NCBI GenBank assembly: GCA_018004935.1
Contig: JAGNBF010000090.1
Location: 1-33,138, forward strand
Reading direction: 5' to 3'
Origin: Chloroflexota bacterium
GTDB lineage: Bacteria > Chloroflexota > Anaerolineae > Promineifilales > Promineifilaceae
Length of the DNA: 33,138 nucleotides
Shown piece by piece: positions 23,798-28,411 of this stretch (the stretch's first letter is position 1; every line of letters begins with the position of its first letter). The notes beneath the pieces were generated by a model that saw only the letters and a program-made list of their open reading frames with translations, searched no databases and was not told the DNA's origin. The position numbers and the translations under genes were made by a program.

Positions 23798-24090
23798 TGG
23801 AGATGAGTAGGGCGATTGCATATTCGAATTTCGCTTACCCCTAAACCCTGCCCCCAGGGGCGGGGAACTTTTTAAGATCCGTTTTTCGCGGGCATTTGCC
23901 CGCGAAAAACGGATCAAATTGTTTTTTTTCCCTTCTTGCCGGAAATCGTCGGGGCGGTGGGTTCATTTGGGTGAGTATGCAATCGCCCTGTGGAGATGAG
24001 TGCGGCAATTGCCTGCGCGGGTTTTTCCTTACCCCTAATCCCTCCTCCAGGGGCAGGGAACCTTTTGGGGGCATAAAAACGGCCCCGGTG
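23798..24090. repeat. 180-bp inverted-end element with 11-bp flanking direct repeats, plus degenerate second copy
   Basis: The element (23809-23989, 181 bp) has exact 13-bp inverted ends, AGGGCGATTGCAT and ATGCAATCGCCCT. It is flanked by TGGAGATGAGT at 23798-23808 and 23991-24001. Inside are a CCCCCAGGGGCG hairpin and a 19-bp stem, GATCCGTTTTTCGCGGGCA with its complement (23876-23915). A decayed second copy (TTACCCCTAA, CCTCCAGGGGCAGGGAACCT) runs to about 24090. It fills the 377-bp gap between two minus-strand genes. The same element is found at 28101-28411. Confidence 0.75.
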
Positions 24091-24095
24091 ATGTT

Positions 24096-25280
24096 TCATT
24101 GGCTAGGGTGGAGGATGCTTTTTGGGGGGTTTAGGTGTTGTAACCGTGCCGCGGCCGCGATCAGCACCTCATCTCGTTTACAAAAGGCAAACCGGGCCAA
24201 TCCCGCCCCATCTTGGGGGTTGTGGTAGAAGGCACTGGGGGGAATGGCCGCCACGCCGATTTCGGTGGTGAGGTAGCGGCAAAAGGCCACATCGTCGGCA
24301 AAACCCAGGTTGCTGATGTCTACCATGACGAAGTAAGTGCCCTGGGGAATCAGCGGCCGCAATCCTGCCTGTTTCAATCCATCCACCAACAAATCCCGTT
24401 TGGCCTGGTACATGACCCGGAGTTCTTCGTAGTAGGTGGTGGCGGTTTCCAAAGCCACCGCGGCCGCTTCCTGAAACGGAGCCGCACCGCAGAAGGTCAT
24501 GAACTGGTGGGTACGGAAGGCCGCCTGGGTCAGTTCCGGTGGCGCCACGACCCAACCCACCTTCCACCCCGTGGCACTGAAGGTTTTGCCCAGACTGGAG
24601 ATGTGTAAGGTTCGCGGCCGCATGCCCGGCAACTGCGCCATTGTCACCTGTTGATAACCATCAAAAATGATGTGTTCATACACCTCATCCACCAGGGCCA
24701 ACACATCATGTTCGATACACAAGGCGGCGATCCGACTCATCTCGTCGGCAGTAAACACTTTGCCGGTGGGGTTGTGGGGGGTGTTGATGAGGATTAGTTT
24801 GGTTTTGGCATTGAACAATCCGGCCAGATGATCAAAATCAATCGCCCAGTCTGGCGGCTGAAGCTGATAAAAGCGGGGAATGCCCCCGGCCATTTGCACG
24901 GCAGGCAGGTAGGAATCGTAAAACGGTTCGCCGATAATCACCTCGTCGCCGGGATTGATCAGTCCCAGAATGCTGGCAAAAATCGCTTCGGTGGCCCCGT
25001 GGGTGATGAGCACTTCGGTGTCGGGGTTGACCTGTAGGCCGTAATCCCGCGCCATTTTTTGGGCCACCGCTTGCCGCAAACGCGGCCGCCCCACGCTCGG
25101 CGCGTACTGGTTGATCTCCTGGTTGATGGCCGCAATGGCCGCTTCCTTGAGAAATGCTGGAGCGGGAAAATCGGGGAACCCCTGACCGAGATTGAGGGCT
25201 TGATGTTGGGTGGCCAGGTGGGTCATTTCGGCAAAAATAGATGTACCCATGTGACGGATGCGGTCAGCCTGATAGCTCAT
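24096..25280 (-). CDS. PLP-dependent aminotransferase, class I (glutamine/kynurenine transaminase-like)
   Basis: The 394-residue product shows fold-type I features: LNLGQGFPDFPAPAFL, the catalytic Lys in SLGKTFSATGWKVGW, NTPHNPTGKVF, and DEVYEHIIFDGY. The motifs fit the YbdL/KAT group, which transaminates methionine, glutamine and aromatic residues with 2-oxoacids. ATG 25280 follows AGAGG; GTG 25286 is an alternative. Five GCGGCCGC octamers occur (24151, 24353, 24460, 24614, 25082), encoding AAA or RP. It is divergent from an omega-amidase-like gene. Substrate not certain. Confidence 0.88.
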   Translation of the reverse strand: MSYQADRIRHMGTSIFAEMTHLATQHQALNLGQGFPDFPAPAFLKEAAIAAINQEINQYAPSVGRPRLRQAVAQKMARDYGLQVNPDTEVLITHGATEAIFASILGLINPGDEVIIGEPFYDSYLPAVQMAGGIPRFYQLQPPDWAIDFDHLAGLFNAKTKLILINTPHNPTGKVFTADEMSRIAALCIEHDVLALVDEVYEHIIFDGYQQVTMAQLPGMRPRTLHISSLGKTFSATGWKVGWVVAPPELTQAAFRTHQFMTFCGAAPFQEAAAVALETATTYYEELRVMYQAKRDLLVDGLKQAGLRPLIPQGTYFVMVDISNLGFADDVAFCRYLTTEIGVAAIPPSAFYHNPQDGAGLARFAFCKRDEVLIAAAARLQHLNPPKSILHPSQ

Positions 25281-25350
25281 GTTCACCTCTGGTTGATCAA
25301 TTGGGCGTGTACTATACTATGCCGATGGTAATTGTTCAAAAGGGGATGGT

Positions 25351-25421
25351 TATTGGTATATTGGTATATTAGTGTATTGGTTCATGCGCTAATACACTAA
25401 TACACCAATACACTAATCACC
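25351..25421. repeat. Eight-base tandem units in inverted arms between divergent genes
   Basis: Left arm 25351-25380: TATTGGTA, TATTGGTA, TATTAGTG, TATTGG. Right arm 25391-25421: AATACACT, AATACACC, AATACACT, AATCACC. The right arm is the near-complement of the left, giving a ~30-bp hairpin with a 10-nt loop. It lies in the 25281-25431 gap that must hold both divergent promoters. The unit TATTGGT is shared with the repeat at 27852-27926. Confidence 0.75.
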
Positions 25422-25431
25422 ATTGAGGTAC

Positions 25432-26232
25432 ATGATGAACGTCACAATCGCCTTGGGGCAGATGGATGTGCAGTTGGGGGAGCCGGAGCGGAACTGGCAG
25501 ACGGTGGTGGCGATGGCCGCGGCCGCGGCCGCACGCCAGGCCGATATTCTGGTTCTGCCGGAGTTGTGGTCAACGGGGTACGATTTGGAGAATGCGGCCG
25601 CGTATGTCACCCCCACCGATCAGGGCATCTTCGCCCGTGTCGCTGACCTGGCCCGCCAACATCACCTGCACATCCTGGGATCGTGCCTGTCGTTGTTGGG
25701 GGTAAACCGGTTTGGCAATACGGCGGTCTGGTTTGATCCGCAAGGGCAAAACCAGGCCGAATACAGCAAAATTCACCTGTTCCGGCTCATGGCTGAGGAG
25801 CAATTTCTGACGGCTGGGGAGAAGTTGGCGATGTTGACAACGCCCTGGGGTAAAGCGGGGCTGGCGATTTGTTACGATTTACGCTTCCCGGAAATGTTTC
25901 GGGCGTATGCGTTGGCGGGGGCGCGGCTGGTGTTTTTGCCCTCGGAGTGGCCCCATCCCCGGTTGGCGCACTGGCAGACGTTGGTTCGCGGCCGCGCTAT
26001 CGAGAATCAGATGTTCCTGATCGCCTGCAACCGGGTAGGCACATCCAAAAACAGCCACTTCTTCGGCCACTCCTGCATGATTGACCCCTGGGGTGAAACG
26101 GTTATCGAAGGGGACGAATCCCCCCAACTACTCGTCGCCACGATTGATACCTCTCTGGTAGACACCGTCCGGGCCAAAATACCAGTGTTTGCGGATCGCA
26201 GACCGGAACTTTATGAAATGCATGATGCGTGA
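25432..26232 (+). CDS. Carbon-nitrogen hydrolase, omega-amidase-like (nitrilase family)
   Basis: The 266-residue protein carries the Glu-Lys-Cys triad of the nitrilase family: E in VLPELWSTGY, K in YSKIHLF, C in AICYDLRFPEMFR. ATG 25432 follows TTGAGG; the next codon is also Met. It is closest in pattern to Nit2/YafV omega-amidases that hydrolyse 2-oxoglutaramate and 2-oxosuccinamate. It is divergent from a transaminase of the type that produces these compounds, which supports this. Four GCGGCCGC octamers occur; two overlap (25519, 25525), giving AAAAAA, and the others are at 25594 and 25988. Confidence 0.88.
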   Translation: MMNVTIALGQMDVQLGEPERNWQTVVAMAAAAAARQADILVLPELWSTGYDLENAAAYVTPTDQGIFARVADLARQHHLHILGSCLSLLGVNRFGNTAVWFDPQGQNQAEYSKIHLFRLMAEEQFLTAGEKLAMLTTPWGKAGLAICYDLRFPEMFRAYALAGARLVFLPSEWPHPRLAHWQTLVRGRAIENQMFLIACNRVGTSKNSHFFGHSCMIDPWGETVIEGDESPQLLVATIDTSLVDTVRAKIPVFADRRPELYEMHDA

Positions 26233-26340
26233 TGCATCAGTAGGGTATGGTGGCCGCAACAGAGAAACACTTCACCATAACAAAGAGAAAGGGCAACTTT
26301 CCCTTCTTTAACCTCAACAATCCACAATGTGCGCTTACGT

Positions 26341-27816: not shown

Positions 27817-27851
27817 AAACGGAGTTATCAATGGGGCAATTGCCACTTAGT

Positions 27852-27926
27852 TATTGGTCTATTGGTCTATTGGTAATTATCAACTGGAACACAGGCAGTC
27901 ACCCATACACCAATACACCAATAACC
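27852..27926. repeat. Eight-base tandem units in inverted arms, tRNA-tilS gap
   Basis: Left arm 27852-27875: TATTGGTC, TATTGGTC, TATTGGTA. Right arm 27904-27926: CATACACC, AATACACC, AATAACC, close to the complement of the left. They enclose 28 nt. The unit is the same as in the repeat at 25351-25421, so the two are members of one family. It lies immediately upstream of tilS. Confidence 0.75.
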
Positions 27927-27932
27927 ACAAAT

Positions 27933-27963
27933 AAAAAAGGCTCGCCGAATGACGAGCCATTTT
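27933..27963 (-). terminator. Terminator after tRNA-Leu
   Basis: On the minus strand GGCTCG (27958-27953) and CGAGCC (27944-27939) form a stem with loop TCATTCGG, followed by a T6 run. It lies directly after the CCA end of the tRNA. The T run is also preceded by T's on the plus strand, so it may work in both directions. Confidence 0.85.
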
Positions 27964-28049
27964 TGGTAGGGCGGGTGGGAGTCGAACCCACACGGTCTCG
28001 CGACCGGCGGATTTTAAGTCCGCTGCGTCTGCCATTTCGCCACCACCCC
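27964..28049 (-). tRNA. tRNA-Leu(UAA)
   Basis: An 86-nt tRNA including an encoded CCA. Acceptor GGGGTGG pairs with CCGCCCT (one G.U pair). The anticodon stem-loop is GCGGA-CTTAAAA-TCCGC with anticodon TAA, and the T loop is GGGTTCGACTCCC. The variable arm (GGTCGCGAGACC) is long, as expected for a class II leucine tRNA. It reads UUA/UUG codons. Confidence 0.95.
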
Positions 28050-28100
28050 ATATACAGGGTCATATTGTACCGTTGACCTGGGTAAACCGTCAACTGTTGC

Positions 28101-28411
28101 GGGTAGATCTTTAGGGTGATTGCTTACTTGGGTTTTCCCCCACCCCTAACCCCGCCCCCAGGGGCGGGGAACTTTTTAAGAGCCGTTTTTCACGGGCGAT
28201 GCCCGCGAAAAACGGCTCAAATTGGTTTTTTCCCCTTCAGGCCAGGAATTGTTAGGGTGCTGGGTTCATTGGGGTGAGGATGCAATCGCCCTGGGTAGAT
28301 CTTTAGGGTGATTGTTTACTTGGGTTTTCCCCCACCCCTAACCCCACCCCCAGGGGCGGGGAACTTTTTAAGGGCTGTTTTTCGCGGGCATTCGCCCGCG
28401 AAAAACAGCCC
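28101..28411. repeat. Second locus of the 180-bp inverted-end element: one full and one partial copy
   Basis: The full copy (28113-28292, 180 bp) runs from AGGGTGATTGC to GCAATCGCCCT, flanked by GGGTAGATCTTT at 28101-28112 and 28293-28304. A second, partial copy starts at 28305 and ends after its hairpin (28411). Each holds CCCCAGGGGCGGGG and a long hairpin: 28180-28218 (outer stem GAGCCG/CGGCTC) and 28372-28411 (GGGCTG/CAGCCC). They fill the 438-bp gap upstream of the arginase gene. A GCGGCCGC octamer (28427) follows the partial copy. Confidence 0.8.

Follow-up and report, generated by a model that had tools for sequence, protein, structure and literature searches.

The 33,138-nucleotide stretch analysed here (hereafter the window) belongs to contig JAGNBF010000090.1 of a Chloroflexota bacterium of the family Promineifilaceae. 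It holds two full-length copies and one truncated copy of a short mobile element, a miniature inverted-repeat transposable element (MITE), each with a long hairpin. The features of the element in the window are the following:

23798..23807 and 23991..24000: left and right target-site duplications of copy 1, 10 bp, tggagatgag
23808..23990, + strand: MITE copy 1, full length, terminal inverted repeats TAGGGCGATTGCATA..TATGCAATCGCCCTG
23838..23869, + strand: GC box of copy 1, CCCTGCCCCCAGGGGCGGGG, an imperfect inverted repeat in itself
23876..23915: central hairpin 1, arms 23876-23893 and 23898-23915, GATCCGTTTTTCGCGGGC-ATTT-GCCCGCGAAAAACGGATC
24001..24066, + strand: partial, diverged copy of the left half of the element, abutting the right target duplication of copy 1 (E 7.6e-7)
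28102..28111: left target-site duplication of copy 2, 10 bp, ggtagatctt
28112..28293, + strand: MITE copy 2, full length
28180..28218: central hairpin 2, GAGCCGTTTTTCACGGGC-GAT-GCCCGCGAAAAACGGCTC, with one A.C mismatch and a 3-nt loop
28294..28303: right target-site duplication of copy 2, 10 bp, doubling as the left flank of copy 3
28304..28411, + strand: MITE copy 3, truncated (left half and hairpin)
28372..28411: central hairpin 3, GGGCTGTTTTTCGCGGGC-ATTC-GCCCGCGAAAAACAGCCC

A first-pass annotation of the window had placed three hairpins at 23876-23915, 28180-28218 and 28372-28411, with outer stems GATCCG/CGGATC, GAGCCG/CGGCTC and GGGCTG/CAGCCC and three columns changed on both sides at once (A-T/G-C, T-A/G-C and C-G/T-A). 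All of this was confirmed, as was the single mismatch reported for one copy, which is the A.C pair of hairpin 2 and is also present in copies at two other loci (L028 and L029). The inner stem, described as kept in all three, is intact in two of them, but in hairpin 2 it carries this mismatch. The left parts of copies 2 and 3 differ at 2 of 60 positions, whereas their hairpins are different variants. Therefore, the trio of the window alone cannot show changes made in place, and one of its hairpins may have come from another copy by exchange.

The analysis was extended to 2.06 Mb of the 7.98-Mb draft assembly (229 contigs) of this one genome, in regions picked partly around known copies, from which 301 hairpins were taken. 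The hairpin is the centre of an element of about 183 bp, whose full-length copies end in TAGGGCGATTGCATACTC / GAGTATGCAATCGCCCTG (terminal inverted repeats TAGGGCGATTGC..). There were 222 matches to the terminal repeat in the 2.06 Mb, versus 26 for the control, and the spacing of inward-facing pairs peaked at 160-199 bp. Most full-length copies are flanked by target duplications of 10 bp, many of them perfect, and the hairpin centre lies inside an open reading frame (ORF) of at least 150 aa in 8 of the 301 copies, versus 71% of random positions. The element is a non-autonomous mobile element, a MITE, present in several hundred intergenic copies. Its central inverted repeat is near-perfect, 16-20 bp long, with a spacer of 2-4 nt, and is adjoined by the GC box, which matches the genome 446 times when up to 3 mismatches are allowed (0 for controls). 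Elements with ends quite unlike these (TTGTCGTTTAAAAAATTAATCAGGTAA.. in one example) also contain GC box and hairpin core, and the core is therefore modular. For copy 1, the predicted RNA fold of the whole element has an energy of -96.9 kcal/mol, with the terminal repeats as outer stem.

A search of the 7.98-Mb genome with the inner-stem pattern gave 108 matches per strand, the palindrome being read on both, and none with the reversed control, far more than chance would give. An exact search found the inner-stem hairpin in none of 200 further Chloroflexota genomes, and the GC box in none of 150. No transposase of the DDE_Tnp_1 family (PF01609) was detected in the genome. Within the 2.06 Mb, no 0.6-3.5 kb element bounded by such ends and a target duplication was found, nor any multicopy insertion sequence, identical copies of which may drop out at contig ends. 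Y1_Tnp (PF01797) gave one weak match (E 1e-6), inside a protein of 388 aa at locus L068, 2561-3727 (G000:C65); it lies about 0.3 kb past a 3-unit hairpin array.

Inspection of the 301 hairpins revealed 238 perfect stems, 58 with one mismatch and 5 with two, that is 68 mismatches in 5336 stem pairs, so that 98.7% of stem positions pair. About a dozen stem types are common, each with its own complementary arm, such as GAGCCGTTTTTCGCGGGC, GGGGCATTTTTCGGGGC, GTGTCATTTTTCGCGGGC, GGCGGGTAAAATCGGGGC and CGGCGCGGTTTGGCGAGCG. The covariation that the first-pass annotation had proposed to test was examined on 48 different stems of the same type as in the window, in which 98.4% of cells pair and 10 of 16 pairs show two-sided changes. 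Compensatory cells numbered 62, versus 15.6 +/- 5.9 after shuffling (0 of 500 shuffles reached this value), while the slid controls gave 5 or fewer. The covariation is very strong. One-sided changes, which the annotation had held to speak against a maintained fold, do exist: of the 301 hairpins, 63 are mismatched, mostly as single copies. Among mismatch types, A.C (35) and G.T (23) did not differ significantly (p 0.15), and neither strand had an excess of wobble pairs. The share of mismatch-bearing hairpins, about 21%, was flat across nearest-relative distances from 0 to 0.2, a distance that is a proxy for age only. Given this flatness, the idea that mismatches merely accumulate after the birth of a copy was rejected.

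Low-copy stems one step away from a common stem were equally often changed on both sides (32 paired) and on one side (32 one-sided). The two sets differ in kind, the paired changes comprising 15 transitions and 17 transversions, versus 27 and 5 for the one-sided ones (Fisher p 0.003). The GATCCG/CGGATC stem of the window is one of the low-copy paired transversions. A transversion pair cannot pass via G-U, and half of the paired changes therefore argue against slow compensation in an RNA.

The loops of the 301 hairpins occur in both orientations at similar counts: ATTC 38 and GAAT 32, AGAC 20 and GTCT 17, GA 19 and TC 17, CTTC 11 and GAAG 8, GAA 9 and TTC 8, variants beyond these five pairs being rare. 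Both orientations are present within each main stem class. The clearest case is a set of eight 181-bp copies with 0-2 differences besides the loop, nearly all at their own target sites, of which five have TTC (TTT in one of them) and three GAA; the flipped copies share the stem class of their sisters. Loops were also tallied genome-wide by pattern search in three stem classes, the second being represented by 100 of its 114 matches. Among the matches listed for this second class, those with the same single difference from the 54-base context had ATTC 16 times and GAAT 18 times (exact binomial p 0.86). Dispersed nearest neighbours with a flank distance of 0.03 or less were split into 18 with the same and 18 with the inverted loop.

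The ends of the element alone recur in genomes of the same family, with about 200 end matches in one of them, G012. Full elements of G012 (loci L159-L176) share the terminal repeats and the 10-bp duplications but have a different interior, built of GTGATCG-type inverted repeats, in which another MITE (ends GTATCTTCTCA) is sometimes nested. The loop of the G012 element is about 20 nt long, and was found 21 times forward and once inverted.

We consider that the stem probably evolves by template switching during replication between the arms of its inverted repeat. A mutation in one arm would be followed by a single switch event, in which the nascent strand would copy one arm from the other, and this would either erase the mutation or make the change paired. 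If the switch took place between strands and spanned the loop, the loop would be inverted, so that paired changes and loop flips would be two products of one mutational process, and neither would need selection for an RNA fold. The hairpin may nevertheless be useful as DNA, for instance for mobility. Template switching between inverted-repeat arms longer than 9 bp homogenises the arms in yeast, and inverts short spacers when it occurs between strands (PMC8604942); it is also described in stems of ribosomal RNA (PMC8794818). In bacteria it is reported to favour transversions, according to the passage of PMC8604942 that cites Dutra & Lovett 2006. Flipped loops, paired transversions made in one step, and no G.T excess are thus signatures of template switching rather than of slow RNA compensation, and the mismatch share, flat at about 21%, is consistent with mutation and correction being in balance. 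The first-pass annotation had read paired change as the sign that the fold is maintained, and had named a mechanism copying one arm to the other as what would speak against this. The arms do stay complementary, but the wider data favour precisely such a mechanism.

The reading of the first-pass annotation amounts to compensatory evolution, in which a structured RNA, or a DNA cruciform with a use at every locus, is under selection. Such selection would account for stems that are 98.7% paired across all copies, for the strong covariation, and for a whole element that folds with its terminal repeats as outer stem. We regard it as improbable. On neither strand are G.T mismatches in excess, transversions make up half of the paired changes seen in low-copy stems, both loop orientations appear in identical contexts, and selection would have to act at hundreds of non-equivalent sites. 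The copies are not enriched between convergent genes (18%, versus 20% of all intergenic gaps), and their orientation relative to neighbouring genes is weakly biased (55 same, 84 opposite, p 0.017). No sign of a small RNA emerged from this analysis of DNA sequence; in the window, Rfam finds only the signal recognition particle RNA and a tRNA, and no family matches the element. Exchange of whole hairpins between dispersed copies, in either orientation, by recombination at the GC box or via the palindromic arms, would make flips and paired differences between sister copies imports instead of new mutations; it appears no more credible as the source of the variation. One core does lie inside carriers with different ends, and mosaic neighbours (28102-28411 in the window, and loci L018, L020, L021 and L026) combine similar or near-identical left halves with different hairpin classes and right halves, as seen at 28112-28411. 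Such exchange could carry paired changes around as blocks, which weighs against template switching at each copy. However, it would move variants without creating them, and would leave unexplained how the 32 paired low-copy variants arose, each one step from a common stem. Flipped copies also belong to the same stem class as their sisters, and a tract of about 40 bp is short for homologous recombination.

Observations against template switching as a process of every locus come from tandem arrays. In 13 arrays, 25 adjacent pairs showed no loop flip, and 12 one-sided stem changes (7 independent by our count) were accompanied by no paired one. For dispersed nearest neighbours, the corresponding counts were about 12 same-like to 16 inverted loops, and 8 one-sided to 19 paired stems. 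The contrast is significant for loops (Fisher p 4e-4 by array) and for stems (1e-3), tests being made at the level of arrays because repeated pairs within an array are not independent. A process acting at every locus should also operate in arrays, unless these are homogenised by unequal exchange, which is a possible confounder; divergence within arrays, from local alignments, was mostly 0-0.05 and reached 0.10. The contrast points to flipping and rebuilding as events tied to movement of the element. In addition, the subset of the second stem class with 0 mismatches was uneven, with GAAT 16 times versus ATTC 5 times among the matches listed. It is conceivable, though we think it unlikely, that the palindrome is opened at each move and rebuilt from one arm, with random loop orientation, so that one-sided changes become paired while resident copies stay unchanged. 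Tandem units, which have not transposed, never flip and show one-sided changes only; among dispersed copies with zero flank differences about half are inverted, and the youngest dispersed family, the eight copies described above, has both orientations. In the full form of this explanation, to which we give slightly less credence still, every transposition would rebuild the palindrome from one arm with random orientation, the loop would record past moves, and the element would be a bacterial transposon with a flip/flop palindrome. The terminal palindromes of parvoviruses, with their flip and flop forms, offer an analogy, but we know of no DDE transposition step that rebuilds and flips a palindrome. 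Moreover, the share of mismatches does not rise with nearest-relative distance, and resident copies seem to be corrected too. The G012 element has the same ends and a loop of about 20 nt, and its 21:1 ratio suggests that the geometry of the hairpin matters more for flipping than the system that moves the element.

Template switching remains the explanation that we favour, and the element can be compared with known systems. Minute loop inversions of chloroplast genomes, where the short spacer of an inverted repeat is found in both orientations, concern single orthologous loci compared between plants, whereas the MITE hairpin belongs to a dispersed repeat family. Quasipalindrome correction in E. 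coli and yeast (PMC8604942, PMC8794818, PMC7202029) is alike in the homogenisation of arms, in the inversion of short spacers that lie between arms longer than about 9 bp, and in one-step compensatory changes rich in transversions. Its known cases are single loci, or ribosomal RNA and coding genes, whereas here hundreds of copies of a mobile hairpin in one bacterial genome display both products, with near-equal loop orientations, and the process is deduced from them. With bacterial MITEs such as ERIC, NEMIS, RUP, Nezha and EFAR (PMC3733652) the element shares its short non-coding sequence, its terminal inverted repeats and target duplications, its many copies between genes and the strong fold of the whole element. 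It differs from them by a dominant, near-perfect central hairpin, the stem of which changes from copy to copy by whole classes, by a core also present in carriers with other ends, and by the lack of a detected partner transposase. Repetitive extragenic palindromes (REP) and their associated tyrosine transposases (RAYT), a system of GTAG/CGTC-tagged palindromes (PMC3733652), likewise consist of many short intergenic palindromes with short loops and variable stems. Here the perfect stems are longer, a fixed GC box lies alongside, a terminal-repeat element surrounds them, and no RAYT was recognised. An assignment to REP/RAYT was rejected, the tag being absent in most hairpins (GTAG in 17 of 301 and CTAC in 6 of 301 within 8 nt of an end, CGTC in 1 of 301). 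A role as intrinsic terminator was also rejected, given the convergent share reported above and the AAATTG that follows the stem before any T run.

Some other features of the sequence were recorded. A tandem duplication of 83 bp, 76% identical, lies at 23027-23192 of the window and contains the phrase CTGACCG..CCACC, found again next to several elements in other parts of the genome. A short tandem repeat of GGTGAAT is found at 27279-27330, within a long ORF region. For one protein encoded in the window, the nearest named relatives come from metagenome-assembled genomes of Caldilineaceae and Litorilinea, at 64% identity. A HIP1-like highly iterated palindrome, the octamer GCGGCCGC, runs through the window and loci L017-L136; the 2.06 Mb contain it 3149 times, or 1.5 times per kb, where base composition predicts about 49 occurrences. 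In G012 the top octamer is ACGGCCGT instead, and another genome, G010, looks similar by eye.

Covariation is commonly read as strong evidence of a functional RNA fold. Paired changes alone do not show selection of such a fold, and here a non-coding repeat with textbook covariation is better explained as bearing the by-product of a mutational process. Flipped loops in otherwise identical contexts provide a simple tell-tale that others can check. The hundreds of near-identical copies constitute a natural experiment for the rates of arm correction and loop inversion, and the same copies could separate replication-linked from transposition-linked flipping.

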